NCBI GenBank assembly: GCA_963662155.1
Contig: OY759270.1
Location: 49,625,664 to 49,689,663 of the forward strand
From: Lamellibrachia columna
Lineage: Eukaryota > Annelida > Polychaeta > Sabellida > Siboglinidae
Reading direction: 5' to 3'
DNA: 64,000 nt
Positions 24,116 to 49,268 of this stretch are shown here, one piece after another. Under the pieces are notes generated by a model. That model was not told the origin of the DNA. It saw nothing but the letters and a program-made list of their open reading frames with translations, and did no database searches. The position numbers and the translations under genes are program-made. Within the stretch, counting starts at the first letter, position 1; every line of letters starts with the position of its first letter.

Positions 24116-24205
24116 ACTTCTTAGTATACACCATCACCACCCCACACGCGTTATATAGATGGACTGAGGGTCCATGACCTCTCAGTTGTAGACGCAATCA
24201 TCACC

Positions 24206-24437: not shown

Positions 24438-24474
<37 letters not shown>

Positions 24475-27400
24475 AAGAAACACCGTCTTCTACACGTGTA
24501 AGAAATGTGGACGGAATTTCTAAAGACGCTGGCTCCTGACCAGACACACACGAACCGCATGTGCCGACGTCACCGAGCCGCCATTACCAAAGAGATCAAA
24601 AAGGGAAGACACTACCCCACCCCGCCATCCACTCGTCACCGAAGAAGATCCCATCGGACCACCCGATCGACTTCCCTTCTCTGACACTCTGTCGACGCAA
24701 CTGCTAGATGTCGTTCGAAATCACTGGTCGACTATAAGGACCCACGTATCAAGAGGTCCCCTCCAAGGCAGGTACGATTACAGATTAACCACGCTAGACA
24801 CGACCGTCCTAGAGGCTCCATTGAAGATCATGTTCCAGGAACAGACCAATGCATTCAAGGTTAACCTCAGTTACGGGTTCATTCTGAGAAACAAGAACAC
24901 GGGTCAATACAAGTACTATCATTCCTCGTGTAATTGCTGTGGACGCTACCTGGACGAACCCAGTCTCATCACCAACAGCAAGGACTTTGCCTTTGCGTTT
25001 GACTTTCTCGAACGCATCCGAGAAACCGACATCTTACAATGGGCCATCAATCAAAGACCGGATTCTACGTGGGTGTGCGAACTCGTAACTAATGTTACCT
25101 TCTTCGTCAACCGCATCATCCATCATCCGATAGGATGTGTACGGGCGACCTCCCTTCCAGTCTACATCAAGAAGAAGAAAAGCGTCATCGGTCTGGAAAC
25201 GGAACCCAACAACAACAAGAGGTACAATGATAACCTGTGTCTCTTCCGATGTCTGGCCCTGCATCGAGGATGCGATCTATATTGATTGGAACCGGTGGTG
25301 AAGACGCTGTACGAGGCGTACGATCAAGACCATGTACCCATGAAAGAATTTGCCGGGGTCACGCTGGATGACCTCTTTCGCGTAGAAACCACGTTCCAAA
25401 CGAACGTGTGCGTGTACAAGCTCGTCAAACCGGATGCAGAAGATGACAAGTCGATCGCCGGATTGGTCCGTCGATCGTTATGCAATTACCCCGAAACAAT
25501 GTATCTCAACCTTCACGAGACACATTTTTCTTTCATCCAAGATGTACGCATGTACTGCAACTCGTATAGATGACGGAAGTGCGGTGACTCGTTATGGAAA
25601 GATGCATGGGCGCTATGTCGACACGAGCGCGCGTGTACGGGGGGTGTGCATCGAGTCTATCCTGGCGGCGTGTACCATTCGACTCCATCGGTATTCGAAC
25701 GTCTGGACGACGAGAACATTCGTGTGGCTGAATCGTTGCGCTACTATCCGTATCGAGCCACCTTTGACTTCGAGTGTTGGTTCGACACCGAACAACTTCC
25801 GTCGGACAGTGACAAGGTCCACTGGGTTGCGCGTCACGTCCCACTGAGCGTCAGCGTGGCGTCCAACGTGCCCGGGTACGAGCAAGTGCAATGTCTCGTC
25901 ACGGATGGAGACACCAACAAGTTGGTGGGTGCCATGATGGATATCTTGCGAGCAATGAGTGACGCTGCATAAGACAATATCAAAGACTCGTACGAGGATG
26001 TGTTGGAACAACTCGCAGAAGCGCTGACGAACTGGAACGAACGGGAGGAGACTGCACGATCAGCCAACGACAAGGAATCTCGTCCACCGACCAATCCATA
26101 CAAAAAGCTGATGGGACAACTTTATGGATGGATGCATCAGTTACCCGTCATCGGGTTCAATTCGGGTAAGTATGATCTCAATGCCATCAAACAGTTCCTC
26201 ATACCCTACTTCATATCCACGTCAAAGACAGAGGAACAAGAAGAAGAGGCGAAGGAACAAGTCGACAAAGAAGAAGAGAACGAGGGTATCGGATCGATTT
26301 TCGTCATCAAACGAAACAACACGTTCATGTGTCTTTCGACGGATCAGCTGAAATTCCTAGACATGACCAATTACATAGCCCCCGGGTTCAGTTATGACAA
26401 GTATCTGAAGGCGTACGGTTGCGAGGTGACAAAAGGTCATTTCCCGTACGAGTACATGGACCGTCTGGAGAGGCTCGACGACACCGCACTTCCATCGAAA
26501 GACGCCTTCTTCAGTCAACTCAAGAACGAAGGTATTTCCGACGAGGATTACGCCAGTTGTCAAGAGGCCTGGCGCGTCAACGCCATGACAACTTTGCGAG
26601 ACTTTCTCGTCTGGAACAACATTAGGGACGTGGTTCCCTTTCTGCAGGCCATCGACAGACAGTTTGCCTTCTACCAGCAACGTGGCATAGACATGTTCAA
26701 GCAAGGCATCAGCGTACCTGGTCTGACCTTGCTCTACCTGTTCAACGACCATCCAGAGAAGACCTACTTTACCTTCTTCAACGAGAAGAATAAAGATCTT
26801 CATCACCTCGTCAAAGATCACGTGGTTGGCGGAGCTTCGCTCATTTCTCAATGCTATCACGAGAAAGGGGTCACCACGCTACGTCAGAACGAGTACGGAG
26901 AGGCCGCTCGTCTGTGTCGATCCATCGTCGGATACGATGCCAACGCTCTGTACTTGTGGTCACTCATGCAAGACATGCCTATGGGATGGTACACGCGACG
27001 ACGGGAAGAGAACGACTTCCGTCCCGAATCGGCGCAGCTGTACGGACAGATGGCAGCGGAATGGTTGACTTGGGAATCCGAACGCACGGGACGCGACATA
27101 CGACACCAGATCAACGGTAGAGAGAAGAGAATAGGCAAACTGTTGGTGGACGGGTGGTGCAGCGAGACGAAAACGGCTTATCAGTACCACGGATATTTTT
27201 TTCACGGTCACTCGTGCACCCGTCAAGAGGTCAACGCGGTCAACGGGAAACCCATGGCTGAACTGCTCGCCGAGACCCGAAAGAACACCGCCTACCTACG
27301 TCACTTTGTCAAGGTCGTCGAGTGGTGGGAATGCGAGTGGAAAGAGATGAGACGAGATCCTGTCATGAAAAAGTGTGTGGATGCAGCATTTCCGCGACGA

Positions 27401-28204
27401 CGTCACGTAAGATGGACGATGACGTCGCAACAGATCCTGAGCGATGTGCGTGCCGGAACCGTGTTCGGTCTGATCGAGTGTGACCTTTGCTTACCAGAAG
27501 CATTGCGCGAACACTTTGCCGAGATGCAGCCCGTGTTCAAGAACATCCGTTTGACACGCGATGATCTCGGACCGTTCATGCGCCGATACGCCGAGGAGCA
27601 CAACATCATGGCGACTCCGAGGCGCATGCTCTTGGGTAGTTATCGAGGCGATAAGATCTTGCTCGCCACGCCTCTGCTGCGATGGTATATGGACCACGGT
27701 CTCGAGGAGACGCACGTCTACCAGATCGTAGAATACGATCCCATCCCATGCTTCCGGCGGTTCGGTGATGCAGTGTCCACGACGCGACGCGAGGGAGACA
27801 TCCACTCGCACAAGGCCATCATCGCAGACACCATGAAGTTGCTGGGGAACTCGGGTTACGGAAAGACCATCACCAACGTGGACCGACATCGTGACGTCAA
27901 CTACTGCACGGAGAAGGCGGCATCACTCATGGTCAACGATAGACGATTCCGACAACTCGACGTCGTCGTCGACGATGCGTACGAGATACAGATGAACAAG
28001 AAAACCGTCACGTACACCCTACCCGTACACGTGGGATTCTTCGTTCTACAGTACGCCAAGATGCGCATGTTGCAGTTCTATTACGACTTCATCAACAGGA
28101 GCGCCCTCTTTTTCAGTACAGCGAGATGGATACAGACTCCGCCTATTTGGCCTTGGCCGCCGAGTCCGTCGACGCCCTCGTGACCCAGGAACTACGAGAA
28201 CATT
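24206..28204 (+). pseudogene. polB: Polinton protein-primed DNA polymerase B, 5' part (to motif C); stops and nested insertion
   Basis: ATG 24206. Order: three C2H2-type fingers (CRHCGIAFDTCAELQRHV, CEKCGVTF, CKKCGRNF), a conserved N-terminal region with DNLCLFRCLALHRG near 25220 that resembles the catalytic motif of OTU proteases, another zinc motif near 25571, then the exonuclease (FDFECWF, Exo I Asp at 25766; GFNSGKYDL, Exo II at 26159) and polymerase motifs A (GYDANALYLW, Asp at 26936), B (KLLGNSGYGKT, about 27836) and C (MDTDSAY, 28126-28146). Stops interrupt the same frame at 24521, 25283, 25571 and 25970; a one-base slip lies in a T5 run at 28109-28113 just before motif C. The gene is then cut at 28204 by the nested element. 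It would replicate the linear genome from a protein primer. This copy is dead. Confidence 0.95.
28199..28204. other. Left target duplication AACATT of the nested element
   Basis: AACATT lies immediately before AGTAGTTAGGGGG and recurs at 44358-44363 immediately after CCCCCTAACTACT. A perfect 6-bp duplication inside the polymerase gene proves the palindrome is a separate insertion. Confidence 0.95.
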
Positions 28205-28825
28205 AGTAGTTAGGGGGAGGATCTGACACATCATTGCGCCGCAAATCACGTGACCGAAACATCAAAGGAAAACGACCCTAATATCGCCCACCGCTAATGA
28301 GTGCGCGCAGCCAATCAGAAAGCAGCACTAGACCTTGGAGCGCCCCCTGGCGGTGGTATCGGAGCGTGCGTGACGTAAGCGCCCCCTAGCGACTGGAGGA
28401 GGAACGAGCTTTGTACGAATCTCATATCTATACAACATTGACGATTTGCATATAACCATAGCGAAATCGTTGCAGTCGAATATGTGGTTTCGATAAGTTC
28501 TACGCGTGTTTGTTTATTGGTATAAAAGACGAACACATATTTTATTGTTCCCGTGTACTAGAATCACGTTCATTTACAAGTGAATGAGTGTTCTAACGCG
28601 TGTTTAGGAGGATGTTACGGTTACATAAGTTTTATTTGTTTTCTGAATCAATCCGTATGAAAATTAGCATCGTGACGCATCTTGTCCATACCACGGTAAA
28701 TCATGCTGCGAGATCAAAGGATATTATTCATAGCAACGTTGCAATCGCGTCAATCAGCGACAATGTTACAAGTACGCGCTCCGTTCTTCTTTGAATGCGG
28801 CTTTTCACAACAAGACCACTTTGAC

Positions 28826-29060
28826 ATTGGTCAGTCGCTGTTGGTGAACTTTGGCTTGTGCGCTCCCACTCACATTGGTCAGTCGCTGTTGGTGGACTTT
28901 GGCTTGTGCGTTTCCGCTCGTCTTGTCTTTTTCACACTGGTCAGTCGCTGCTAGTGGACTTTGGCTTGTGCGTTTCCACTCGTCTTGTCTTTTTCACACT
29001 GGTCAGCCGCTATTGGTGGACTTTGACTTGTACGCTCCCACTCGTCTTGTCTTTTTGGAG
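28826..29060 (+). repeat. About four 60-65-bp tandem repeats near the left arm tip (mirror at 43502-43736)
   Basis: Units share GGTCAGTCGCTG and GGACTTTGGCTTGTGCG with length variants; mirror copies lie in the right arm. The ORFs through them (GLCVSARLVFF, LVDFGLC repeats) are repeat shadows. Confidence 0.85.
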
Positions 29061-29653
29061 GAGGAACGAACATTGACCTAGTTACGTGTATGTGTCGAAG
29101 GGTCGTTAACCTAGTAAGGAGACGAACATATGCACACACGCAATGGGAACGAGAACTCGATACAAGACGGGAATATCAGTTCAAGCAAAATTTAATATAT
29201 ATGAAAACGAAGTACAACACTGCTTCCGGGACCAAAGTAAGTCGTATTCGCGTGCCGCCCAACTTTTTAACTGCGCGATGGCTATACGCTAGCCGCGTAA
29301 TGTTTTCGCGCGAGTATCCGTGGTAACAGTAACCGCCATAGTGGACATAGGAACGACTGTCCGTTAACAGCGGTCATTAATAGTATCATTAATAACTGAG
29401 ATGAAAGAGTAAGTTAACAGTGGTCATTAACAGGGTAATTAATAACTGAGATCAAAGGACCTAACGAGGAGACGAAAAATGAACAAAACACGATATCGTA
29501 CTATATTTTCTTTATATGTAAATATTTAAAAATAATGCGCTTTTACATTGTATCCATAACTCCTACAGTTTACCCATAATTCCTACAATTTACCCATAAG
29601 TCTCCTATTGAATAAGAGTACAAGGACATTTTATTAAATATTTGAAAATAATG

Positions 29654-29702
29654 ACACAATATCGTCCACAAACGTTAGACAGAGGACTGTAAAGTCTCTT
29701 GC
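29654..29702 (-). pseudogene. Protease-gene fossil A, left arm
   Basis: Reverse complement of 42860-42908. About 45 of 49-50 bases match the protease gene of the surrounding Polinton at 51223-51272, covering the catalytic-cysteine codon region. Confidence 0.8.
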
Positions 29703-29976
29703 CATACCGACGTAAAGCTGACGTAAGCTATAAACGTGTCAGGACATGCAGCTGACGTATGCTGCACACACAACAATACCAAATAAGGACATGCAGCTGA
29801 CGTAAACGGCATCAGACGCGTCACGGAAAGTGTACCATCAACATATTGTCGTTATATGTCAATATTTTAAAATAATGCGCCTGTACACTTTACCCATAAC
29901 TCCTACAGTTTACCCATAATTCCTTCAATTTACCCATAATTCCTACAATTTACCCAGCACACATATATAGTGTAGT

Positions 29977-30021
29977 AACATTGTCCACAAACGTTAGACA
30001 GAGGACTCTAAATTTTCTTGT
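29977..30021 (-). pseudogene. Protease-gene fossil B, left arm
   Basis: Mirror of 42541-42585; includes a 30-base exact match to 51235-51264 of the intact protease gene. Confidence 0.8.
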
Positions 30022-30299
30022 CATACCGACGTACAGCTGACGAAAGCTATAAACGTGTCAGGACATGCTGCTGACGTAATCCGCATACAGAACAATAACA
30101 AATAAGGTAGTGCACGCTATGTATGCCAATATCAAAAGCCAGCAGGAGAACAACATTGTGGCAGCGATGACGGGAGTATGACGAGAAGCTGTGTGATATG
30201 TATGGAGACATTTGACACCATGTGACATGCATGGAGACATTTACCACTGTGTGATATGCGTGGAGACATTGACAACCATGTGACATGCATGGAGAAATT

Positions 30300-33200
30300 G
30301 ACCGCCATTTTTGAAAGTTTATGTTATGAAAGTTTGTAAGTTGGAAGTTTTGGAAGTTTGCTTCACCGCACACACGTTTTGAAAGTTTGTGTTGTGAAAA
30401 ATGTGTAAGTTGGAAGTTTGCTTCACGTCACACACACACACACACACGTTTTGAAAGTTTATGTTATGAAAGTTTGTAAGTTGGAAGTTTGCTTCACCGC
30501 ACACACATTTTGTGTGAAGTTTGCGAGTTGGAAGTCTGCAAGTTGGAAGTTTTAGCTTTGGAAGTTTGCATATTGGAAGTTCTCCACTCCACTCCACGCC
30601 TGCGAAGTTGTGTAAAGTTGTGTGAAGTTGTGCAAAGTTGTACGAAGTTGTGTGAAGTTTGCGAGTTGGAAGTCTGCCAGTTGGAAGTTTGTGCTTTGGA
30701 AGTTTGCAAATTGGAAGTTTGCTTCACCGCACACACATGTTTTGAAAGTTTATGTTATGAAAGTTTGTAAGTTGTAAGTTTTGGAAGTTTGCTTCACCGC
30801 ACACACATGTTTTGAAAGTTTGTGTTGTGAAAAATGTGTAAGTTGGAAGTTTGCTTCACGTCACACACATACACGTTTTGAAAGTTTATGTTATGAAAGT
30901 TTGTAAGTTGGAAGTTTGCTTCACCGCACATACATTTTGTGTGAAGTTTGCGAGTTGGAAGTCTGCAAGTTGGAAGTTTTAGCTTTGGAAGTTTGCATAT
31001 TGGAAGTTCTCCACTCCACTCCACGCCTGCGAAGTTGTGTAAAGTTGTGTGAAGTTGTGCAAAGTTGTACGAAGTTGTGTAAAGTTTGCGAGTTGGAAGT
31101 CTGCCAGTTGGAAGTTTGTGCTTTGGAAGTTTGCAAATTGGAAGTTTGCTTCACCGCACAAACATGTTTTGAAAGTTTATGTTATGAAAGTTTGTAAGTT
31201 GTAAGTTTTGGAAGTTTGCTTCACCGCACACACATGTTTTGAAAGTTTGTGTTGTGAAAAATGTGTAAGTTGGAAGTTTGCTTCACGTCACACACATACA
31301 CGTTTTGAAAGTTTATGTTATGAAAGTTTGTAAGTTGGAAGTTTGCTTCACCGCACATACATTTTGTGTGAAGTTTGCGAGTTGGAAGTCTGCAAGTTGG
31401 AAGTTTTAGCTTTGGAAGTTTGCATATTGGAAGTTCTCCACTCCACTCCACGCCTGCGAAGTTGTGTAAAGTTGTGTGAAGTTGTGCAAAGTTGTACGAA
31501 GTTGTGTAAAGTTTGCGAGTTGGAAGTCTGCCAGTTGGAAGTTTGTGCTTTGGAAGTTTGCAAATTGGAAGTTTGCTTCACCGCACACACATGTTTTGAA
31601 AGTTTATGTTATGAAAGTTTGTAAGTTGTAAGTTTTGGAAGTTTGCTTCACCGCACACACATGTTTTGAAAGTTTGTGTTGTGAAAAATGTGTAAGTTGG
31701 AAGTTTGCTTCACGTCACACACATACACGTTTTGAAAGTTTATGTTATGAAAATTTGTAAGTTGGAAGTTTGCTTCACCGCACACACATTTTGTGTGAAG
31801 TTTGCGAGTTGGAAGTCTGCAAGTTGGAAGTTTTAGCTTTGGAAGTTTGCATATTGGAAGTTCTTCACTCCACTCCACGCCTGCGAAGTTGTGTAAAGTT
31901 GTGTGAAGTTGTGCAAAGTTGTACGAAGTTGTGTAAAGTTTGCGAGTTGGAAGTCTGCCAGTTGGAAGTTTGTGCTTTGGAAGTTTGCAAATTGGAAGTT
32001 TGCTTCACCGCACACACATGTTTTGAAAGTTTATGTTATGAAAGTTTGTAAGTTGTAAGTTTTGGAAGTTTGCTTCACCGCACACACATGTTTTGAAAGT
32101 TTATGTTATGAAAGTTTGTAAGTTGTAAGTTTTGGAAGTTTGCTTCACCGCACACACATGTTTTGAAAGTTTGTGTTGTGAAAAATGTGTAAGTTGGAAG
32201 TTTGCTTCACGTCACACACATACACGTTTTGAAAGTTTATGTTATGAAAATTTGTAAGTTGGAAGTTTGCTTCACCGCACACACATTTTGTGTGAAGTTT
32301 GCCAGTTGGAAGTCTGCAAGTTGGAAGTTTTAGCTTTGGAAGTTTGCATATTGGAAGTTCTTCACTCCACTCCACGCCTGCGAAGTTGTGTAAAGTTGTG
32401 TGAAGTTGTGCAAAGTTGTACGAAGTTGTGTGAAGTTTGCGAGTTGGAAGTCTGCCAGTTGGAAGTTTGTGCTTTGGAAGTTTGCAAATTGGAAGTTTGC
32501 TTCACCGCACACACATGTTTTGAAAGTTTATGTTATGAAAGTTTGTAAGTTGTAAGTTTTGGAAGTTTGCTTCACCGCACACACATGTTTTGAAAGTTTA
32601 TGTTATGAAAGTTTGTAAGTTGTAAGTTTTGGAAGTTTGCTTCACCGCACACACATGTTTTGAAAGTTTGTGTTGTGAAAAATGTGTAAGTTGGAAGTTT
32701 GCTTCACGTCACACACATACACGTTTTGAAAGTTTATGTTATGAAAGTTTGTAAGTTGGAAGTTTGCTTCACCGCACACACATTTTGTGTGAAGTTTGCG
32801 AGTTGGAAGTCTGCAAGTTGGAAGTTTTAGCTTTGGAAGTTTGCATATTGGAAGTTCTCCACTCCACTCCACGCCTGCGAAGTTGTGTAAAGTTGTGTGA
32901 AGTTGTGCAAAGTTGTACGAAGTTGTGTAAAGTTTGCGAGTTGGAAGTCTGCCAGTTGGAAGTTTGTGCTTTGGAAGTTTGCAAATTGGAAGTTTGCTTC
33001 ACCGCACACACATGTTTTGAAAGTTTATGTTATGAAAGTTTGTAAGTTGTAAGTTTTGGAAGTTTGCTTCACCGCACACACATGTTTTGAAAGTTTGTGT
33101 TGTGAAAAATGTGTAAGTTGGAAGTTTGCTTCACGTCACACACATACACGTTTTGAAAGTTTATGTTATGAAAGTTTGTAAGTTGGAAGTTTGCTTCACC

Positions 33201-34970
33201 GCACACACACATTTTGTGTGAAGTTTGCGAGTTGGAAGTCTGCAAGTTGGAAGTTTTAGCTTTGGAAGTTTGCATATTGGAAGTTGTCCACTCCACTCCA
33301 CGCCTGCGAAGTTGTGTAAAGTTGTGTGAAGTTGTGCAAAGTTGTACGAAGTTGTGTAAAGTTTGCGAGTTGGAAGTCTGCCAGTTGGAAGTTTGTGCTT
33401 TGGAAGTTTGCAAATTGGAAGTTTGCTTCACCGCACACACATTTTGTGTGAAGTTTGCGAGTTGGAAGTCTGCAAGTTGGAAGTTTTAGCTTTGAAAGTT
33501 TGCATATTGGAAGTTCTCCACTCCACTCCACGCCTGCGAAGTTGTGTAAAGTTGTGTGAAGTTGTGCAAAGTTGTACGAAGTTGTGTAAAGTTTGCGAGT
33601 TGGAAGTCTGCCAGTTGGAAGTTTGTGCTTTGGAAGTTTGCAAATTGGAAGTTTGCTTCACCGCACACACATGTTTTGAAAGTTTATGTTATGAAAGTTT
33701 GTAAGTTGTAAGTTTTGGAAGTTTGCTTCACCGCACACACATGTTTTGAAAGTTTGTGTTGTGAAAAATGTGTAAGTTGGAAGTTTGCTTCACGTCACAC
33801 ACATACACGTTTTGAAAGTTTATGTTATGAAAATGTGTAAGTTGGAAGTTTGCTTCACCGCACACACATTTTGTGTGAAGTTTGCGAGTTGGAAGTCTGC
33901 AAGTTGGAAGTTTTAGCTTTGGAAGTTTGCATATTGGAAGTTCTTCACTCCACTCCACGCCTGCGAAGTTGTGTAAAGTTGTGTGAAGTTGTGCAAAGTT
34001 GTACGAAGTTGTGTGAAGTTTGCGAGTTGGAAGTCTGCCAGTTGGAAGTTTGTGCTTTGGAAGTTTGCAAATTGGAAGTTTGCTTCACCGCACACACATG
34101 TTTTGAAAGTTTATGTTATGAAAGTTTGTAAGTTGGAAGTTTGCTTCACCGCACACACACACACATGTTTTGACCGCCATTTTTGAAAGTTTGTAAGTTG
34201 TAAGTTTTGGAAGTTTGCTTCACCGCACACACATGTTTTGAAAGTTTGTGTTGTGAAAAATGTGTAAGTTGGAAGTTTGCTTCACGTCACACACATACAC
34301 GTTTTGAAAGTTTATGTTATGAAAGTTTGTAAGTTGGAAGTTTGCTTCACCGCACACACACATTTTGTGTGAAGTTTGCGAGTTGGAAGTCTGCAAGTTG
34401 GAAGTTTTAGCTTTGGAAGTTTGCATATTGGAAGTTCTCCACTCCACTCCACGCCTGCGAAGTTGTGTAAAGTTGTGTGAAGTTGTGCAAAGTTGTACGA
34501 AGTTGTGTAAAGTTTGCGAGTTGGAAGTCTGCCAGTTGGAAGTTTGTGCTTTGGAAGTTTGCAAATTGGAAGTTTGCTTCACCGCACACACACATGTTTT
34601 GAAAGTTTATGTTATGAAAGTTTGTAAGTTGTAAGTTTTGGAAGTTTGCTTCACCGCACACACATGTTTTGAAAGTTTGTGTTGTGAAAAATGTGTAAGT
34701 TGGAAGTTTGCTTCACGTCACACACATACACGTTTTGAAAGTTTATGTTATGAAAGTTTGTAAGTTGGAAGTTTGCTTCACCGCACACACATTTTGTGTG
34801 AAGTTTGCGAGTTGGAAGTCTGCAAGTTGGAAGTTTTAGCTTTGGAAGTTTGCATATTGGAAGTTGTCCACTCCACTCCACGCCTGCGAAGTTGTGTAAA
34901 GTTGTGTGAAGTTGTGCAAAGTTGTACGAAGTTGTGTAAAGTTTGCGAGTTGGAAGTCCAAACATTGGAG
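30300..34970 (+). repeat. 427-bp higher-order satellite, left arm (about 11 units)
   Basis: Long units of 427 bp, with longer (about 497 bp) and shortened variants, repeat from about 30300. Each is built from short motifs such as GTTGGAAGTTTGC, AAGTTGTGTGAAGTTGTGC and CTTCACCGCACACACATG. Equivalent points fall at 30489, 30916, 31343, 31770, 32267, 32764, 33427, 33850 and 34773. The order of long and short variants is preserved in mirror image in the right arm. Many overlapping ORFs on both strands (KLEVC-type, NFQ/TSNLQTS-type) are artefacts of a stop-poor repeat. Confidence 0.95.
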
Positions 34971-35076
34971 ACGATTTTTTTTTTTTTTTTTTTGATGGTT
35001 TTATTACATACAATAAAGAGGGAGTAAAAAGTGACAACAACAACAGTATCACACTCAACCTCTAAATTTCAAAGTG

Positions 35077-35647
35077 TCACTCATCCAACGTAGCAGTTGT
35101 TCTTATTATCAAATCTGAAATAACGTTATCCAACTGATTAACAGAATTTCTCAGCTGTATAATAGTTCCTAGCATCAATACTTCTCTTGGTGTTTGTGTT
35201 GATTTTTCTATGACGGTTGTCTGTGGTTGTGGCTGTGTTTGTGTCTGTCTTTTTACAGTTTCCGGTGGCGCCTGTGTTTGTGTTGCTGCTGCTGATGTCG
35301 ATGTTCTTTTTTGCTGTATTATAGTAGTATATTCTGTCGTTTTTTTCGTACCATCATCATCATGCATTTGTAACTCCATCTGTAGAAAAGAAAGTCTAGT
35401 CACTATCATCATCATCATCATCATCATATATATTTGCGTATTACATTGCTAGACTCTTTCTAATTATATACTTCACATACATATGTGAAGAGTAATACTA
35501 TGACAATCCAACACAAAATGTGAAGAATGACAGTGCAAATACGATGTGTTTATCTTGCAAGATGTCGTTACTTACTTCTGATTTAGTCGTCATGCTTGGT
35601 CTATGGGTTGAAGGCTGGTCAATGTTCGTAATGTTCCTTGTTTTCAT
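35077..35647 (-). CDS. Two-exon gene of the palindrome, left copy (124-residue TQT-motif protein)
   Basis: Mirror of the gene at 36918-37488. Exon 1 is 35647-35576, the intron 35575-35380, exon 2 35379-35077, all on the minus strand. TATA at 35690-35696 and CCAAT at 35747-35751 lie upstream. I saw no base change from the right copy in exons. See the right copy for the protein description. The two copies are transcribed divergently, away from the centre. Confidence 0.65.
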
Positions 35648-35689
35648 AAAGATATCGGTATTGAAAAGGACGCGCTTTTCGAAATGTAT

Positions 35690-35751
35690 CTATATACGAT
35701 TCGCGGAGAATATTATCAATCAAAATCACACACGTTCACGACTGTGATTGG
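35690..35751 (-). promoter_or_regulatory. CCAAT/TATA promoter of the left-arm gene
   Basis: Mirror of the right-arm promoter: TATA at 35690-35696, CCAAT at 35747-35751 on the minus strand. Confidence 0.6.
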
Positions 35752-35757
35752 TCTTTA

Positions 35758-35932
<175 letters not shown>

Positions 35933-36196
35933 TGATACGATCACTGGAATTTATTAACGGGGGAGGGAAGGAGGGAAACTTTGATTGTTGGAGGGTTGTC
36001 ATTGTTTTATTACAAATTAAGTACTAAAGCACTTATGATGTAGGATTGGCTAAACCTGATAATCACACTTTCTGAAACGTTCGAATAAAGTCATGGAATT
36101 TATTTATGTCGACAAGAGAAACACGATTCTACATTTTCATTCTACTAGTAGATCGTGACCTAGTTGATTAGTCTACATAAACACCGTGAAATAAAA

Positions 36197-36370
36197 AGGT
36201 CAAAAGGTCAAGGTCACCAACAGTCACATGGTGGTTATTATTGTCCATACTGTGGTAAATCGTGCTGCGAATTGTTACCAATAATATTCTTTGATCTCGC
36301 AGCACGATTTACCACAGTATGGACAATAATAACCACCATGTGACTGTTGGTGACCTTGACCTTTTGACCT
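36197..36370. promoter_or_regulatory. Six AGGTCA half-sites around the palindrome centre
   Basis: AGGTCA occurs at 36197-36202, 36205-36210 and 36211-36216 (spacing 2, then 0), and in reverse at 36351-36356, 36357-36362 and 36365-36370. The third reads TCAAGGTCA, the extended half-site used by ERR/NR5A-type nuclear receptors. The cluster lies between the two divergent genes, where a shared enhancer would be expected. Function is inferred from motif only. Confidence 0.4.
36270..36297. other. 28-bp unpaired spacer at the palindrome centre
   Basis: The spacer consists of about 10 bases (AATTGTTACC) plus 18 bases (AATAATATTCTTTGATCT) that continue a ~45-bp motif on the right arm only. A relative of that motif, GTCCATACCACGGTAAATCA..., sits near each arm tip (28684-28735 and 43826-43878). 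The right arm therefore extends the motif further than the left, which points to the junction where mirror duplication occurred. Confidence 0.8.
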
Positions 36371-36634
36371 TTTTATTTCACGGTGTTTATGTAGACTAAT
36401 CAACTAGGTCACGATCTACTAGTAGAATGAAAATGTAGAATCGTGTTTCTCTTGTCGACATAAATAAATTCCATGACTTTATTCGAACGTTTCAGAAAGT
36501 GTGATTATCAGGTTTAGCCAATCCTACATCATAAGTGCTTTAGTACTTAATTTGTAATAAAACAATGACAACCCTCCAACAATCAAAGTTTCCCTCCTTC
36601 CCTCCCCCGTTAATAAATTCCAGTGATCGTATCA

Positions 36635-36807
<173 letters not shown>

Positions 36808-36813
36808 TAAAGA

Positions 36814-36875
36814 CCAATCACAGTCGTGAACGTGTGTGATTTTGATTGATAATATTCTCCGCGAATCGTATATAG
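36814..36875 (+). promoter_or_regulatory. CCAAT/TATA promoter of the right-arm gene
   Basis: CCAAT at 36814-36818 and TATATAG at 36869-36875, 43 bases before the ATG at 36918. The spacing is normal for an RNA polymerase II core promoter. The mirror is at 35690-35751. Confidence 0.6.
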
Positions 36876-36917
36876 ATACATTTCGAAAAGCGCGTCCTTT
36901 TCAATACCGATATCTTT

Positions 36918-37488
36918 ATGAAAACAAGGAACATTACGAACATTGACCAGCCTTCAACCCATAGACCAAGCATGACGACTAAATCAGAAGTAAGTAACGA
37001 CATCTTGCAAGATAAACACATCGTATTTGCACTGTCATTCTTCACATTTTGTGTTGGATTGTCATAGTATTACTCTTCACATATGTATGTGAAGTATATA
37101 ATTAGAAAGAGTCTAGCAATGTAATACGCAAATATATATGATGATGATGATGATGATGATAGTGACTAGACTTTCTTTTCTACAGATGGAGTTACAAATG
37201 CATGATGATGATGGTACGAAAAAAACGACAGAATATACTACTATAATACAGCAAAAAAGAACATCGACATCAGCAGCAGCAACACAAACACAGGCGCCAC
37301 CGGAAACTGTAAAAAGACAGACACAAACACAGCCACAACCACAGACAACCGTCATAGAAAAATCAACACAAACACCAAGAGAAGTATTGATGCTAGGAAC
37401 TATTATACAGCTGAGAAATTCTGTTAATCAGTTGGATAACGTTATTTCAGATTTGATAATAAGAACAACTGCTACGTTGGATGAGTGA
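36918..37488 (+). CDS. Two-exon gene of the palindrome, right copy (124-residue TQT-motif protein)
   Basis: ATG 36918. Exon 1 36918-36989 encodes MKTRNITNIDQPSTHRP...TTKSE; the donor is GTAAGT at 36990 and the acceptor TTTTCTACAG ends at 37185; exon 2 37186-37488 begins MELQMHDDDG and ends IIRTTATLDE before TGA. Phase is 0 at the junction, giving 124 residues. Features: a short acidic patch, a Gln/Thr-rich middle with three TQT motifs (AATQTQAP, KRQTQTQP, EKSTQTPR), of which EKSTQT fits the dynein light chain LC8 consensus KxTQT, and a C-terminal helix (TIIQLRNSVNQLDNVISDL) with coiled-coil heptads. CCAAT (36814), TATATAG (36869) and AATAAA (37560) complete a compact transcription unit. No known family; function unknown. 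An intronless start at 37138 would give a poly-Met artefact from an ATG repeat. Confidence 0.65.
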
Positions 37489-37594
37489 CACTTTGAAATT
37501 TAGAGGTTGAGTGTGATACTGTTGTTGTTGTCACTTTTTACTCCCTCTTTATTGTATGTAATAAAACCATCAAAAAAAAAAAAAAAAAATCGTC

Positions 37595-40500
37595 TCCAAT
37601 GTTTGGACTTCCAACTCGCAAACTTTACACAACTTCGTACAACTTTGCACAACTTCACACAACTTTACACAACTTCGCAGGCGTGGAGTGGAGTGGACAA
37701 CTTCCAATATGCAAACTTCCAAAGCTAAAACTTCCAACTTGCAGACTTCCAACTCGCAAACTTCACACAAAATGTGTGTGCGGTGAAGCAAACTTCCAAC
37801 TTACAAACTTTCATAACATAAACTTTCAAAACGTGTATGTGTGTGACGTGAAGCAAACTTCCAACTTACACATTTTTCACAACACAAACTTTCAAAACAT
37901 GTGTGTGCGGTGAAGCAAACTTCCAAAACTTACAACTTACAAACTTTCATAACATAAACTTTCAAAACATGTGTGTGTGCGGTGAAGCAAACTTCCAATT
38001 TGCAAACTTCCAAAGCACAAACTTCCAACTGGCAGACTTCCAACTCGCAAACTTTACACAACTTCGTACAACTTTGCACAACTTCACACAACTTTACACA
38101 ACTTCGCAGGCGTGGAGTGGAGTGGACAACTTCCAATATGCAAACTTCCAAAGCTAAAACTTCCAACTTGCAGACTTCCAACTCGCAAACTTCACACAAA
38201 ATGTGTGTGTGCGGTGAAGCAAACTTCCAACTTACAAACTTTCATAACATAAACTTTCAAAACGTGTATGTGTGTGACGTGAAGCAAACTTCCAACTTAC
38301 ACATTTTTCACAACACAAACTTTCAAAACATGTGTGTGCGGTGAAGCAAACTTCCAAAACTTACAACTTACAAACTTTCAAAAATGGCGGTCAAAACATG
38401 TGCGTGTGTGCGGTGAAGCAAACTTCCAACTTACAAACTTTCATAACATAAACTTTCAAAACATGTGTGTGCGGTGAAGCAAACTTCCAATTTGCAAACT
38501 TCCAAAGCACAAACTTCCAACTGGCAGACTTCCAACTCGCAAACTTCACACAACTTCGTACAACTTTGCACAACTTCACACAACTTTACACAACTTCGCA
38601 GGCGTGGAGTGGAGTGAAGAACTTCCAATATGCAAACTTCCAAAGCTAAAACTTCCAACTTGCAGACTTCCAACTCGCAAACTTCACACAAAATGTGTGT
38701 GCGGTGAAGCAAACTTCCAACTTACAAATTTTCATAACATAAACTTTCAAAACGTGTATGTGTGTGACGTGAAGCAAACTTCCAACTTACACATTTTTCA
38801 CAACACAAACTTTCAAAACATGTGTGTGCGGTGAAGCAAACTTCCAAAACTTACAACTTACAAACTTTCATAACATAAACTTTCAAAACATGTGTGTGCG
38901 GTGAAGCAAACTTCCAATTTGCAAACTTCCAAAGCACAAACTTCCAACTGGCAGACTTCCAACTCGCAAACTTTACACAACTTCGTACAACTTTGCACAA
39001 CTTCACACAACTTTACACAACTTCGCAGGCGTGGAGTGGAGCGGAGAACTTCCAATATGCAAACTTTCAAAGCTAAAACTTCCAACTTGCAGACTTCCAA
39101 CTCGCAAACTTCACACAAAATGTGTGTGCGGTGAAGCAAACTTCCAATTTGCAAACTTCCAAAGCACAAACTTCCAACTGGCAGACTTCCAACTCGCAAA
39201 CTTTACACAACTTCGTACAACTTTGCACAACTTCACACAACTTTACACAACTTCGCAGGCGTGGAGTGGAGTGGACAACTTCCAATATGCAAACTTCCAA
39301 AGCTAAAACTTCCAACTTGCAGACTTCCAACTCGCAAACTTCACACAAAATGTGTGTGTGCGGTGAAGCAAACTTCCAACTTACAAACTTTCATAACATA
39401 AACTTTCAAAACGTGTATGTGTGTGACGTGAAGCAAACTTCCAACTTACACATTTTTCACAACACAAACTTTCAAAACATGTGTGTGCGGTGAAGCAAAC
39501 TTCCAAAACTTACAACTTACAAACTTTCATAACATAAACTTTCAAAACATGTGTGTGCGGTGAAGCAAACTTCCAATTTGCAAACTTCCAAAGCACAAAC
39601 TTCCAACTGGCAGACTTCCAACTCGCAAACTTTACACAACTTCGTACAACTTTGCACAACTTCACACAACTTTACACAACTTCGCAGGCGTGGAGTGGAG
39701 TGGAGAACTTCCAATATGCAAACTTCCAAAGCTAAAACTTCCAACTTGCAGACTTCCAACTCGCAAACTTCACACAAAATGTGTGTGCGGTGAAGCAAAC
39801 TTCCAACTTACAAACTTTCATAACATAAACTTTCAAAACGTGTATGTGTGTGACGTGAAGCAAACTTCCAACTTACACATTTTTCACAACACAAACTTTC
39901 AAAACATGTGTGTGCGGTGAAGCAAACTTCCAAAACTTACAACTTACAAACTTTCATAACATAAACTTTCAAAACATGTGTGTGCGGTGAAGCAAACTTC
40001 CAAAACTTACAACTTACAAACTTTCATAACATAAACTTTCAAAACATGTGTGTGCGGTGAAGCAAACTTCCAATTTGCAAACTTCCAAAGCACAAACTTC
40101 CAACTGGCAGACTTCCAACTCGCAAACTTCACACAACTTCGTACAACTTTGCACAACTTCACACAACTTTACACAACTTCGCAGGCGTGGAGTGGAGTGA
40201 AGAACTTCCAATATGCAAACTTCCAAAGCTAAAACTTCCAACTTGCAGACTTCCAACTGGCAAACTTCACACAAAATGTGTGTGCGGTGAAGCAAACTTC
40301 CAACTTACAAATTTTCATAACATAAACTTTCAAAACGTGTATGTGTGTGACGTGAAGCAAACTTCCAACTTACACATTTTTCACAACACAAACTTTCAAA
40401 ACATGTGTGTGCGGTGAAGCAAACTTCCAAAACTTACAACTTACAAACTTTCATAACATAAACTTTCAAAACATGTGTGTGCGGTGAAGCAAACTTCCAA

Positions 40501-42265
40501 AACTTACAACTTACAAACTTTCATAACATAAACTTTCAAAACATGTGTGTGCGGTGAAGCAAACTTCCAATTTGCAAACTTCCAAAGCACAAACTTCCAA
40601 CTGGCAGACTTCCAACTCGCAAACTTTACACAACTTCGTACAACTTTGCACAACTTCACACAACTTTACACAACTTCGCAGGCGTGGAGTGGAGTGAAGA
40701 ACTTCCAATATGCAAACTTCCAAAGCTAAAACTTCCAACTTGCAGACTTCCAACTCGCAAACTTCACACAAAATGTGTGTGCGGTGAAGCAAACTTCCAA
40801 CTTACAAATTTTCATAACATAAACTTTCAAAACGTGTATGTGTGTGACGTGAAGCAAACTTCCAACTTACACATTTTTCACAACACAAACTTTCAAAACA
40901 TGTGTGTGCGGTGAAGCAAACTTCCAAAACTTACAACTTACAAACTTTCATAACATAAACTTTCAAAACATGTGTGTGCGGTGAAGCAAACTTCCAATTT
41001 GCAAACTTCCAAAGCACAAACTTCCAACTGGCAGACTTCCAACTCGCAAACTTTACACAACTTCGTACAACTTTGCACAACTTCACACAACTTTACACAA
41101 CTTCGCAGGCGTGGAGTGGAGTGGAGAACTTCCAATATGCAAACTTCCAAAGCTAAAACTTCCAACTTGCAGACTTCCAACTCGCAAACTTCACACAAAA
41201 TGTATGTGCGGTGAAGCAAACTTCCAACTTACAAACTTTCATAACATAAACTTTCAAAACGTGTATGTGTGTGACGTGAAGCAAACTTCCAACTTACACA
41301 TTTTTCACAACACAAACTTTCAAAACATGTGTGTGCGGTGAAGCAAACTTCCAAAACTTACAACTTACAAACTTTCATAACATAAACTTTCAAAACATGT
41401 GTGTGCGGTGAAGCAAACTTCCAATTTGCAAACTTCCAAAGCACAAACTTCCAACTGGCAGACTTCCAACTCGCAAACTTTACACAACTTCGTACAACTT
41501 TGCACAACTTCACACAACTTTACACAACTTCGCAGGCGTGGAGTGGAGTGGAGAACTTCCAATATGCAAACTTCCAAAGCTAAAACTTCCAACTTGCAGA
41601 CTTCCAACTCGCAAACTTCACACAAAATGTATGTGCGGTGAAGCAAACTTCCAACTTACAAACTTTCATAACATAAACTTTCAAAACGTGTATGTGTGTG
41701 ACGTGAAGCAAACTTCCAACTTACACATTTTTCACAACACAAACTTTCAAAACATGTGTGTGCGGTGAAGCAAACTTCCAAAACTTACAACTTACAAACT
41801 TTCATAACATAAACTTTCAAAACATGTGTGTGCGGTGAAGCAAACTTCCAATTTGCAAACTTCCAAAGCACAAACTTCCAACTGGCAGACTTCCAACTCG
41901 CAAACTTCACACAACTTCGTACAACTTTGCACAACTTCACACAACTTTACACAACTTCGCAGGCGTGGAGTGGAGTGGAGAACTTCCAATATGCAAACTT
42001 CCAAAGCTAAAACTTCCAACTTGCAGACTTCCAACTCGCAAACTTCACACAAAATGTGTGTGCGGTGAAGCAAACTTCCAACTTACAAACTTTCATAACA
42101 TAAACTTTCAAAACGTGTGTGTGTGTGTGTGTGACGTGAAGCAAACTTCCAACTTACACATTTTTCACAACACAAACTTTCAAAACGTGTGTGCGGTGAA
42201 GCAAACTTCCAAAACTTCCAACTTACAAACTTTCATAACATAAACTTTCAAAAATGGCGGTCAAT
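37595..42265 (-). repeat. 427-bp higher-order satellite, right arm (mirror copy)
   Basis: Reverse complement of the left-arm satellite including the same sequence of variant unit lengths. One base near 39041 (GGAGCGGAG against GGAGTGGAG) and a CA-repeat near 38400 differ from the partner. Confidence 0.95.
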
Positions 42266-42540
42266 TTCTCCATGCATGTCACATGGTTGTCAATGTCTCC
42301 ACGCATATCACACAGTGGTAAATGTCTCCATGCATGTCACATGGTGTCAAATGTCTCCATACATATCACACAGCTTCTCGTCATACTCCCGTCATCGCTG
42401 CCACAATGTTGTTCTCCTGCTGGCTTTTGATATTGGCATACATAGCGTGCACTACCTTATTTGTTATTGTTCTGTATGCGGATTACGTCAGCAGCATGTC
42501 CTGACACGTTTATAGCTTTCGTCAGCTGTACGTCGGTATG

Positions 42541-42585
42541 ACAAGAAAATTTAGAGTCCTCTGTCTAACGTTTGTGGACAATGTT
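42541..42585 (+). pseudogene. Protease-gene fossil B, right arm
   Basis: Positions 42553-42582 are identical over 30 bases to 51235-51264 in the Polinton protease. The flanks diverge at once. Orientation is toward the arm tip, the same orientation as the real protease toward the right terminal repeat. Confidence 0.85.
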
Positions 42586-42859
42586 ACTACACTATATATG
42601 TGTGCTGGGTAAATTGTAGGAATTATGGGTAAATTGAAGGAATTATGGGTAAACTGTAGGAGTTATGGGTAAAGTGTACAGGCGCATTATTTTAAAATAT
42701 TGACATATAACGACAATATGTTGATGGTACACTTTCCGTGACGCGTCTGATGCCGTTTACGTCAGCTGCATGTCCTTATTTGGTATTGTTGTGTGTGCAG
42801 CATACGTCAGCTGCATGTCCTGACACGTTTATAGCTTACGTCAGCTTTACGTCGGTATG

Positions 42860-42908
42860 GCAAGAGACTTTACAGTCCTCTGTCTAACGTTTGTGGACGA
42901 TATTGTGT
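42860..42908 (+). pseudogene. Protease-gene fossil A, right arm
   Basis: Ungapped match to 51223-51272 with about four or five differences. The frame is still open and would read LSNVCGRYC, against LSNVCGQYC in the intact gene, so the active-site cysteine codon is kept while the rest of the gene is gone. Confidence 0.85.
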
Positions 42909-44357
42909 CATTATTTTCAAATATTTAATAAAATGTCCTTGTACTCTTATTCAATAGGAGACTTATGGGTAAATTGTAGGAATTATGGGTAAACTGTAGG
43001 AGTTATGGATACAATGTAAAAGCGCATTATTTTTAAATATTTACATATAAAGAAAATATAGTACGATATCGTGTTTTGTTCATTTTTCGTCTCCTCGTTA
43101 GGTCCTTTGATCTCAGTTATTAATTACCCTGTTAATGACCACTGTTAACTTACTCTTTCATCTCAGTTATTAATGATACTATTAATGACCGCTGTTAACG
43201 GACAGTCGTTCCTATGTCCACTATGGCGGTTACTGTTACCACGGATACTCGCGCGAAAACATTACGCGGCTAGCGTATAGCCATCGCGCAGTTAAAAAGT
43301 TGGGCGGCACGCGAATACGACTTACTTTGGTCCCGGAAGCAGTGTTGTACTTCGTTTTCATATATATTAAATTTTGCTTGAACTGATATTCCCGTCTTGT
43401 ATCGAGTTCTCGTTCCCATTGCGTGTGTGCATATGTTCGTCTCCTTACTAGGTTAACGACCCTTCGACACATACACGTAACTAGGTCAATGTTCGTTCCT
43501 CCTCCAAAAAGACAAGACGAGTGGGAGCGTACAAGTCAAAGTCCACCAATAGCGGCTGACCAGTGTGAAAAAGACAAGACGAGTGGAAACGCACAAGCCA
43601 AAGTCCACTAGCAGCGACTGACCAGTGTGAAAAAGACAAGACGAGCGGAAACGCACAAGCCAAAGTCCACCAACAGCGACTGACCAATGTGAGTGGGAGC
43701 GCACAAGCCAAAGTTCACCAACAGCGACTGACCAATGTCAAAGTGGTCTTGTTGTGAAAAGCCGCATTCAAAGAAGAACGGAGCGCGTACTTGTAACATT
43801 GTCGCTGATTGACGCGATTGCAACGTTGCTATGAATAATATCCTTTGATCTCGCAGCATGATTTACCGTGGTATGGACAAGATGCGTCACGATGCTAATT
43901 TTCATACGGATTGATTCAGAAAACAAATAAAACTTATGTAACCGTAACATCCTCCTAAACACGCGTTAGAACACTCATTCACTTGTAAATGAACGTGATT
44001 CTAGTACACGGGAACAATAAAATATGTGTTCGTCTTTTATACCAATAAACAAACACGCGTAGAACTTATCGAAACCACATATTCGACTGCAACGATTTCG
44101 CTATGGTTATATGCAAATCGTCAATGTTGTATAGATATGAGATTCGTACAAAGCTCGTTCCTCCTCCAGTCGCTAGGGGGCGCTTACGTCACGCACGCTC
44201 CGATACCACCGCCAGGGGGCGTTCCAAGGTCTAGTGCTGCTTTCTGATTGGCTGCGCGCACTCATTAGCGGTGGGCGATATTAGGGTCGTTTTCCTTTGA
44301 TGTTTCGGTCACGTGATTTGCGGCGCAATGATGTGTCAGATCCTCCCCCTAACTACT

Positions 44358-44363
44358 AACATT
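44358..44363. other. Right target duplication AACATT of the nested element
   Basis: Matches 28199-28204 exactly. The polymerase coding frame continues directly to its right. Confidence 0.95.
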
Positions 44364-44815
44364 ACTTCCGGCACCGCTCCGAATGGTTGCCGTCCGAATG
44401 TTGCGACGACCATCGGAACGAGTACGTGCGCTTTCGTCTCGCCAATAGACCGTGGGTTGGCGAAGAGGCGTGCTGTAAGGCGCGCAGGGCGTACGACAAG
44501 AGGACACCGGGTCTGTTCAAGGTGGAGTGGTCCGGTGATGGGTTCGTGGGGTTGTGTAGCAAGACATACTATTGGTTCGGACCCACCGACAAATGCAGCA
44601 CCAAAGGACTGAGCAAACGTCAAAACGACATCGACAAGAACGCGTTCCTGGAGGTGCTCACCAACCGTCGGAGCGGAAGTGGAAAGAACCGCGAGTTCCG
44701 AGTTTGTCACTCGACCGTGTTGACTTACGTGCAGGAACGAGCGGCTCTCACCTACTTTTACGCCAAACGCGTGGTGCACGAGGACGGGATGAGTACGGGT
44801 CCGGTGGATGTGTAG
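44364..44815 (+). pseudogene. polB: Polinton DNA polymerase B, C-terminal part displaced by the nested element
   Basis: About 150 codons, open to TAG at 44813-44815. It encodes the conserved Polinton polymerase tail: TPGLFKVEWSGDGFVGLCSK (the 'product accepted by template, then lysine-rich thumb' region), KTYYWFG, KGLSKRQNDIDK and the terminal YAKRVVHEDGMSTGPVDV. It is in the frame that continues the 5' part once the inserted element and one target copy are discounted, so the insertion alone split the gene here. Confidence 0.93.
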
Positions 44816-45481
44816 AAAAAGGCGATGCACTCTGGTCGTCTTTCATAAGCGACCATGGACGCACGGTGGAAAACATCCTTTCACGTGCATCGTCGCCGGA
44901 CCGACGGGATGCGGCAAAACTACATTCGTGACGCGTATGCTGCGTCACGCTACTGCGATGATCGATCCACCCCCCCGAACGGATCACGTGGTGTTACGGA
45001 GAATGGCAAGAGGCTTACGCAACGATGGACTTGGTCGACGTGCGGTTCGAGGAAGGATTGCCGAGTGTGAGCATGTTCGATTCGTCGACGAGGAACCTTA
45101 TCGTCATAGACGATCTCATGGCAGAAACGGACGAACGGGTCACGATCTTGTTCACTAAAAAAAGTCATCACAGGAACACGTCCGTGCTGTATCTCATACA
45201 GAATCTGTTCCCTAAAAACAAAGAGAGTTGTACCATCAGTCTGAATTCTCAGTACATGGTGGTGTTCAAGAATCCTCGTGACGCATCGCAGATGTCGCAC
45301 TTGGCTCGACAGATGTATCTGGGGCGCGTCAAGTTCGTTCAAGAGGCTTTTAAAGACGCTACGTCGGTACCGTCGGTATCTATTGGTCGATCTCAAACAG
45401 GACACGCCCGACGACATGTGTCTGCGCACGGCCATCTTTCCAGACGACGGTGTTCAGTACGTGTACTTGCCGAAGGTATAA
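44808..45481 (+). pseudogene. Polinton packaging ATPase (FtsK/HerA, A32-like), two frameshifts
   Basis: The ATG at 44808 overlaps the polymerase stop. Walker A is GPTGCGKTTF (about 44898-44928) and Walker B NLIVIDDLM (about 45097-45123), followed by the sensor-like SVLYLIQNLFPKNKESCTIS and FKNPRDASQMSHLARQM, all standard for the viral genome-packaging ATPase. The protein passes through three frames: a slip in the C7 run at about 44970-44977 and another at about 45360. It ends in DGVQYVYLPKV and TAA at 45479-45481. The family length is about 220-230 residues and the sum of pieces agrees. It would pump DNA into capsids. The first slip is in a homopolymer, so an assembly error is possible. Confidence 0.92.
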
Positions 45482-45518
45482 AAAGACCGCATGCGTGGAT
45501 AGTCTCTTCATTCACACC

Positions 45519-45867
45519 ATGTCTGACCTGGTGAAGAGACACATTGTGTGCATACAGGCTCTGAATAGAATCAAGAGCAACAAACTGAAAAGAGCCATCA
45601 TCGCCAACGCCGACGCCGATCTGCTGTGTGCACTAGCCGAGTGTGCCTACAACATATTAAAAAAGAACATTCCATTGACCGAATTACAGAGGCGGCGTTT
45701 GAGTACATACAGTTACGCGAGTTGGCTCAACTGCCAGGAGACGACGCATCTTGCTGCAACAGCAGGTCGGCGAGGGACAGAGCCGAGGTTTCCTATCGGC
45801 CTTCCTAGCACCGTTGGCAAGTTCGGTCTTTCTACCCTTGCTTCGAGAGGTGCTGCTCAAGAGGTAG
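45519..45867 (+). pseudogene. Conserved small Polinton protein (structural-type, function uncertain), frameshifted
   Basis: ATG 45519 starts MSDLVKRHIVCIQALNRIK; the segment NADADLLCALAECAYNILKKNIPLT is a block I recognise as common to Polintons, adinto-like viruses and some other small DNA viruses. Frame changes near 45700 and 45750 lead to a basic/hydrophobic end (GFLSAFLAPLASSVFLPLL) before TAG at 45865-45867. The usual length is about 115-120 residues, which fits. In these elements it sits in the structural gene region and may be a virion core or membrane-active protein; that is inference. Confidence 0.65.
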
Positions 45868-45873
45868 AGAGAC

Positions 45874-46633
45874 ATGGAACACGCACGCAAGATGGCCTTG
45901 GTGGACCCACGAATGTTGGACACGCTTCGTTCACCCCCAACCCCGACGGACACCTTAGGTAAGAAGGTGCAAGCCCTCGATGACGAGATGATGACCATCC
46001 TCGATAGAAAGGACCTCGACGACAGGACCAAGGTAACACTGTATAATCAGGTGTTGCAACAGTACAACGTCTTGTCTGATAAACACGTAAAGGAACCGGT
46101 ACGCGTGATCGCGGTGAACGAGTCTGGGGCGGGGGCGGGGGTGGCGGAGGGAGCAGTAGGAGCTCCTGCTACTAGCAGAATAGAAGCCGACGTCGTGGAC
46201 ACCGTTGCCAAGACCATGCAAGCCAAAGCCAGACGTTTGATGGAACATCTCAAAAGAGACATATCTTGGACCGCTCGCGGCGAACTGATCCACGAGGGTG
46301 TGTCGGTTGCCGGAAGTAACGTGGTGGATCTCGTAAATTATCTGTTGCGTAAGAGAAAGACCGATCCAACGGGATGGCAACCATTTGCAAGACAACTCCG
46401 TACCATGAACCTGCCCATGGAATTGGTCCTTAACGACACCCACTCCAGGTCGTCGTCGTCGTCGAATGCCGGCTACTCCTCGCTCTGGTGGTGGTGCGGG
46501 TAGTGCACGAAGATCACACAGTTGGACACCCCTCGCTCGTCGACGCAGTCAGATGGAACATTCCATGCTCACCCCACCTCCAGAACGTCAACACAAGGCT
46601 TTGGCGCCATTGGCTAGTTGGGAAGACATTTAA
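45874..46633 (+). pseudogene. Conserved Polinton accessory/structural protein with basic tail, frameshifted
   Basis: ATG 45874, seven bases after the previous stop. The intact part runs to 46503: MEHARKMALVDPRMLDTLRS, then helices with LDDEMMTILDRKDLDDRTKV and LYNQVLQQYNVLSD, a Gly/Ala linker, and a helical domain ending PFARQLRTMNLPMELV. A one-base change near 46448, inside a CGT repeat, moves a basic tail (RRRRRMPATPRSGGG, SARRSHSW) into another frame that ends at TAA 46631. The pattern is familiar from other Polintons between ATPase and integrase, but I do not know its function. Confidence 0.6.
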
Positions 46634-46672
46634 GATGGTGTGGTACGTGTCCATAGCACAGTGTGCGCTACG

Positions 46673-46807
46673 ATGATGAGCGATAAACAGGACACATACC
46701 GTTCCGTCATCGTTGCGATATTTTGCGGTGGACTTTACTTGCTTGCTGATGCTATAGCCCGAAGTCTTATACAATACTCGCTATTCGGGATATGTTTTCA
46801 CTACTAG
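46673..46807 (+). CDS. 44-residue single-span membrane protein
   Basis: ATG 46673 (a second at 46676) to TAG 46805-46807. The sequence SVIVAIFCGGLYLLADAIA forms one hydrophobic segment with a charged N-terminus (MMSDKQDTYR). It overlaps the next small ORF by 16 bases. It is too small for ordinary gene callers. The position before integrase suggests a viral small membrane protein; there is no homology claim. Confidence 0.5.
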   Translation: MMSDKQDTYRSVIVAIFCGGLYLLADAIARSLIQYSLFGICFHY

Positions 46808-46941
46808 ATTATCGGTCATTCGTCATCGTTGTAGGTGTGGTAGTGGGTGTTCTGGTGTACGTCAGCGTACTCGTCGTCACTCGTCAAGAACCGTGCTGTG
46901 AAGTCAACGTCACAACAACCAACCCATCGGAACTCTTTTAA
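46792..46941 (+). CDS. 49-residue single-span membrane protein overlapping the integrase start
   Basis: ATG 46792 to TAA 46939-46941; the last A is the first base of the integrase ATG (TAATG). It contains FVIVVGVVVGVLVYVSVLVV, a strong transmembrane segment, followed by a short tail with an adjacent cysteine pair (EPCCEVNVTTTN) and an NVT glycosylation sequon. The chained overlaps imply co-expression from one transcript. Function unknown. Confidence 0.5.
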   Translation: MFSLLDYRSFVIVVGVVVGVLVYVSVLVVTRQEPCCEVNVTTTNPSELF

Positions 46942-48008: not shown

Positions 48009-48038
48009 CCGCGCGTATGATGACACTTCATTCGAGAA

Positions 48039-49266: not shown

Positions 49267-49268
49267 AG

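Follow-up and report, generated by a model that had tools for sequence, protein, structure and literature searches.

Polintons (Mavericks) are thought to be protein-primed replicators and viruses, mostly on the evidence of their gene content. In a 64,000-nt stretch of the genome of the annelid Lamellibrachia columna (the window; GenBank assembly GCA_963662155.1, contig OY759270.1, positions 49,625,664 to 49,689,663), a near-perfect palindrome with Polinton tips lies within the polymerase gene of another Polinton. We consider it, with a probability of about 0.72, to be a non-autonomous Polinton satellite: Polinton enzymes would replicate it through a hairpin, and Polinton integrase would insert it.

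Giant palindromes that have one protein-primed viral end on both sides and foreign DNA within are known from SYREC (adenovirus 12) and from mirror-image defective adenovirus genomes, which arose in cell culture as viral DNA. The Polinton palindromes likewise show one viral-type end on both sides and enclose foreign DNA, but they are an inserted, inherited family. The fold-back elements FB and Galileo have very long inverted repeats with tandem repeats, and elements of the Galileo type have P-superfamily ends and a longer target-site duplication (TSD). Very long inverted repeats containing tandem repeats are present here too, in the window palindrome among others; the tips, however, are those of Polintons, the TSD is 6 bp and the palindromes are complete over 10-17 kb, with neither P-superfamily ends nor a longer TSD found. 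In an excerpt of a study of vertebrate Mavericks, these elements have (AGT)2 ends, expected to permit jumping-back during protein priming, and 6-bp TSDs (PMC8097293). With coding Polintons/Mavericks the palindromes share (AGT)2//(ACT)2 ends, a 6-bp TSD and terminal sequence found in a coding copy in the same genome; unlike them, nearly the whole element is inverted repeat, and the open reading frame (ORF) lists of the window arm and of the left halves of ten other elements contain no polymerase, integrase, ATPase or capsid ORF of the expected size, so that we class the palindrome as non-autonomous only. Teratorn, as described in the part of its report consulted, is also a large viral mobile element including long inverted repeats, but it is a herpesvirus with a piggyBac-like transposase and 18-bp terminal inverted repeats (PMC6431247). 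The literature on Polintons/Mavericks and fold-back elements, represented mostly by titles and abstract openings, yielded no account of palindromic Polintons.

The palindrome and its Polinton ends

The palindrome spans 28205..44357 (16,153 bp) and was delimited by inverted-repeat detection (repeats I1, of 5961 nt, I6 and I7) and by a blastn comparison of its left half with the reverse complement of its right half. The left arm (28205..36270, forward strand, 8066 bp) and the right arm (36297..44357, reverse strand, 8061 bp) are 99.864% identical, with six mismatches and three gap openings; the coordinates given in a preliminary description of this DNA were exact, while the spacer, given there as 28 bp, is 26 nt long (36271..36296). 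The length of the palindrome rules out chance. A read artefact caused by a missed adapter would also have mirrored the flanks; the observed flanks are each unique and carry a direct 6-bp duplication at their ends, which speaks against such an artefact. The tips (AGTAGTTAGGGGGAGG) are of the (AGT)2 type, and a perfect TSD, AACATT, stands on both sides (28199..28204 and 44358..44363). It falls inside the polymerase gene, as had been proposed: when the two host flanks were compared separately with the polymerase ORF of a related coding Polinton (L045), both were collinear with it and each aligned up to the insertion, which lies ~450 nt inside that ORF.

Two coding Polintons of the same genome share terminal sequence with the palindrome. 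The closer is a 16.6-kb element at C11:6858066-6874704 (TSD AGCCAT; own terminal repeat 123 bp), which was read at its ends and over a 1401-bp middle stretch. Its tip is that of one palindrome subgroup, L027 (right end, 122 of 122 nt; left end, 99% over 206 nt), and its terminal block matches the window arm at 98.9% over 177 nt (arm positions 29-205; 28233..28409, mirrored in the right arm). The middle stretch is 98.9% identical to L045 and covers parts of two coding frames, 422 residues of polymerase and 79 of ATPase. The left end of this element can be followed in the palindrome arm as far as position 205 and reappears over positions 852-924 (29056..29128; 97.3% over 73 bp, mirrored in the right arm), past what its right end shares; the ~650-bp block over which the coding left end jumps (28410..29055) is likewise mirrored. 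The mirrored arms contain left-end sequence that extends past the coding element's own repeat, so that such sequence stands at each end of the palindrome. Judged by these alignments, the C11 element is a likely coding partner.

The other element came from a terminal-sequence pattern with 347 forward and 342 reverse sites in the genome (control, 0). Among 100 places listed, on C1-C3, 32 of 47 pairs were spaced 17.3-17.9 kb, and one pair read from this class (L045/L046; C1, 17.6 kb) is a coding Polinton with TSD GCGGCC and terminal repeats of ~224 bp. It encodes an integrase core (E 2.4e-13), an RPA-like C-terminus, a weak polymerase match and an ATPase with weak matches to adenovirus IVa2 and poxvirus A32. 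The window arm aligns with it over 163 bp at 84.7% and in short pieces (left end 194-264 and 645-700, right end 728-813). At L046:5806-7026 a single open frame combines matches to a NADAR domain (Pfam E 2e-16) and to an RPA-like C-terminal domain (E 3e-12).

The preliminary description had likened the ends of the palindrome to those of its host Polinton. From arm position 29 on they instead match the lineage of the C11 and C1 elements, and descent from the host, whose tips differ, was rejected. That this is a transposed, non-autonomous form of Polinton was upheld by the (AGT)2 tips, the 6-bp TSD and the terminal sequence shared with coding Polintons. Its derivation from one terminal region as a mirror dimer is valid just at the tip end: coding-Polinton matches are confined to arm positions 29-205 and 852-924 plus the short pieces, a 90-bp piece at arm 924-1013 resembles the opposite (right) Polinton end, and the bulk of the arm is other DNA, chiefly 427-bp satellite units (arrays at 30309..34958 and, in opposite orientation and with limits taken from the left-arm mirror, 37603..42253). 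Similarly, the claim that the whole element is terminal repeat applies to nearly its whole length, apart from the 26-nt spacer, and some relatives have long yet incomplete terminal repeats. In subgroup L053, left-end sequence (39-440) is followed by right-subterminal sequence (533-702), both reading inward, an arrangement suggestive of either an ancestor whose repeats were longer or template switching from one end to the other.

A family of palindromes with homogenised arms

The preliminary description treated the palindrome as a single object and proposed a search of the same genome for further palindromes with 6-bp duplications. That search, of 880 Mb in 30 contigs (the window being C10:49625664-49689663), uncovered a family. 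The first 396 bp of the arm had at least 40 matches, 38 of 40 forming 19 inward-facing pairs, and a 36-nt pattern at arm position ~236 had 55 forward and 54 reverse sites (control, 0). Among 100 of these 109 sites, 34 paired copies of the window arm type were counted, the window palindrome being one. With total length estimated as the span between paired sites plus 470, the median is 14.5 kb; 31 of the 34 fall within 6.6-16.8 kb and the others measure 22.0, 31.7 and 33.2 kb.

Ten further pairs were read as separate halves and analysed together with the window palindrome. All 11 have perfect 6-bp TSDs, as do five of five additional long-repeat elements, two of which are copies of one insertion, giving 16 of 16 perfect duplications (15 independent). 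The two copies (L053/L054 and L055/L056; C8:34.93 and 38.04 Mb) have the same TSD and are inverted relative to each other, a recent duplication of the locus. In ten of the 11 elements the inverted arms extend to a centre no larger than a few hundred bp, and in some of them the satellite arrays are unequal. Among 20 further midpoints, 12 are self-inverse, two (L065, L066) have shorter inverted arms and six show no inversion; three of these six hold a type-B centre (below) elsewhere in the element, and in two others the satellite changes strand once. Of the three pairs not read, two (C11:2978636 and C14:37794455) also contain a type-B centre. Some evidence of a palindromic centre is thus available for 31 of 34 pairs, with none for C3:11643914 and with C9:51755207 and C13:32638283 undecided.

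The type-B centre, of 341 bp, occurs at no fewer than 40 loci, every one matching on both strands, and is present in full inside 22 of the 34 pairs. The type-A centre (the window, L027 and L035) includes a copy of a 55-bp subterminal motif, which in the window adjoins the spacer. In L027 the stem-loop of the window centre is present twice, head to head around one base; either L027 underwent a second turn, or half was lost from the form present in the window. Such doubling is expected if a fold-back was copied and then folded again. As an element of this kind has no fixed orientation, that of the spacer carries no information.

The tips read begin with AGTAGT. The 20-30 nt behind this motif vary by subgroup (for example L027, L033, L039), yet in several they make up a short inverted repeat (AGGGG...CCCCT; GTGAGAGGATCTCAC), as though the shape of a hairpin at the tip had been conserved. 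One tip variant and its two-mismatch form account for nine pairs: seven of the 34 family pairs, the C11 Polinton and a 16.6-kb pair at C14:48272609-48289236 whose sequence was not read. Five of the seven were read as palindromic halves, C9:14198402 has a self-inverse midpoint and C6:62313020 a partial centre. The tip of the window palindrome itself occurs in four pairs and one single site; two of these pairs were read as palindromes and the other two have self-inverse midpoints.

The arms are homogenised, because variants private to one element stand mostly on both of its arms and a 3-bp indel never differs between them. Over the first 2000 nt, the arms of one element show 0-3 differences in nine of nine elements (L035 and L041 were omitted because their interiors differ), against a mean difference of 0.78% between elements. 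Of the private variants, 22 were shared by both arms and six were confined to one (beyond column 80, 15 and 6). The indel is alike in both arms of all 31 pairs with both sites listed (offset 1008 in 21 pairs, 1011 in 10; 3 of the 34 pairs have no second site listed), and in C2:13291296 all 12 satellite steps are identical between arms. The 880 differences in a full-arm MAFFT alignment, which mis-registers the satellite arrays, were left out.

Proposed replication through a hairpin and rival explanations

In the mechanism that we favour, the satellite keeps the tip and the terminal sequence that the Polinton terminal protein, polymerase and integrase would be expected to recognise. Bounded on either side by the same arm end, it would possess two origins, its coding interior having been replaced by other DNA, mainly satellite, and the enzymes would act on its tips in trans. 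During the mobile phase a displaced single strand could fold at the centre into one long hairpin with one end; mismatch repair, or synthesis of one half on the template of the other, would make the arms alike, and replication round the loop would restore the duplex palindrome. From the tips and the TSD we infer that Polinton integrase then inserts this duplex, producing the 6-bp duplication. The arms would thus have been made alike in the mobile phase and have drifted afterwards. Lengths mostly below those of the coding class would fit packaging, although they are only suggestive.

Several results weigh against this mechanism. The genome search, which found the palindrome's own tip (first 28 nt) in the four pairs and single site above, revealed no element shown to be coding that bears it. 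The element at C3:11643914 has 1474-bp repeats only, around a non-palindromic middle. Satellite unit numbers are unequal between arms in three of four elements counted (10/11, 12/9 and 12/8). Over 800 nt the right arm of L029 has no differences to L027 and one to the left arm of the same element; over 2000 nt it is equally close to both. The arms may also, with lower probability, have been homogenised inside the chromosome.

This last point leads to gene conversion, by which the arms of a long-repeat non-autonomous Polinton would pair after insertion and stay alike, as in Y-chromosome palindromes. Conversion would equally yield private variants common to both arms. Arm mismatches of 13/1085, 10/406, 14/1050 and 14/1102 (~1.2-2.5%) in another subgroup, in copies without independent dating, argue that it is not always effective, and one duplicated insertion keeps 13-14 arm differences in both copies, a weak test given how recent the duplication is; we hold conversion as the source of the likeness to be quite improbable. 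Growth of the fold-back type, in which unequal exchange lengthened the terminal repeats of a deletion derivative stepwise until they met, concerns the origin of the palindromes and is compatible with hairpin replication. Repeat lengths are indeed graded, from 123 and 224 bp (coding) through ~1.0-1.1 kb (three elements) and 1474 bp to full palindromes, but one 341-bp centre shared by so many loci suggests a single palindromic founder over repeated growth, and such an origin seems unlikely to us. That one arm was assembled twice is hardly credible: the palindromes are known here from assembled sequence alone, but 16 of 16 elements have unlike flanks on their two sides together with matching 6-bp duplications, the arms differ at single sites, and dozens of loci are involved.

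Extending hairpin replication by Polinton enzymes, we tentatively propose, as a possibility that we still regard as doubtful, that the family represents heritable palindromic satellite viruses of Polintons. These would be helper-dependent mirror genomes with an origin (perhaps also a packaging signal) at both ends, remade through a hairpin in each replication cycle and kept below the length of the helper by capsid size; their tips would track different Polinton lineages, and one subgroup would carry a small gene under selection. A family whose members evidently share tips and mirror structure is a natural probe of the cis requirements of the Polinton machinery, and arm homogenisation may record a hairpin or end-to-end copying step in sequence. 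Lengths mostly under helper size make packaging testable. The mechanism would also offer a route by which near-perfect palindromes of 10-17 kb, usually unstable, could spread in an animal genome.

Small reading frame and host Polinton

Type-A elements have an ORF of 100 codons near the centre in each arm (in the window, 37186..37488 on the forward strand and its mirror copy at 35077..35379 on the reverse strand). It has 24 matches in the genome, none with an internal stop. Among eight copies read, the ratio of nonsynonymous to synonymous divergence (dN/dS) is 0.18-0.49 in 23 of 28 pairs (dS 0.04-1.35); two close pairs give 1.4 and 2.3, and three have no synonymous difference. By these ratios the ORF looks to be under purifying selection overall. 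It has no match in Pfam. With all 36 candidates scored, the small ORF is matched in only 3 of the 34 pairs, and coding capacity as a requirement of the family was rejected. Within 36972-37590, AATAAA and a poly(A)-like run lie downstream of the ORF; an intron is possible, with a possible first exon, judged by eye, at 36972-36989. Diverged copies occur in tandem at C9:24.496-24.500 Mb and C8:9.70-9.72 Mb, those on C9 near a match to the terminal repeat of the host Polinton.

The host Polinton (20215..52078; ~15.7 kb without the insert) has the ends AGTAGTTA...TAACTACT and its own TSD, ACTGAC, on both sides. It carries an integrase ORF at 46902-47951 (rve, E 1.7e-13) and an RPA-like ORF at 22710-23228 (Rep_fac-A_C, E 7.7e-13). 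In an integrase search, the best 120 of 3002 proteins include relatives that have rve plus a chromodomain; a separate phrogs scan yielded no more than a weak match, in a zinc-finger region, to a family without known function. The open frame of the host polymerase gene (25973..28183, forward strand) has a weak DNA_pol_B_2 match, under the Pfam cut-off (E 2e-4), and stops 21 nt upstream of the palindrome, which sits in the same gene; the host polymerase gene was or is therefore broken there too. Outside the host Polinton, the window contains two more tandem arrays, at 10316-11313 and 12397-13108, with units of 23 bp and 54 bp.

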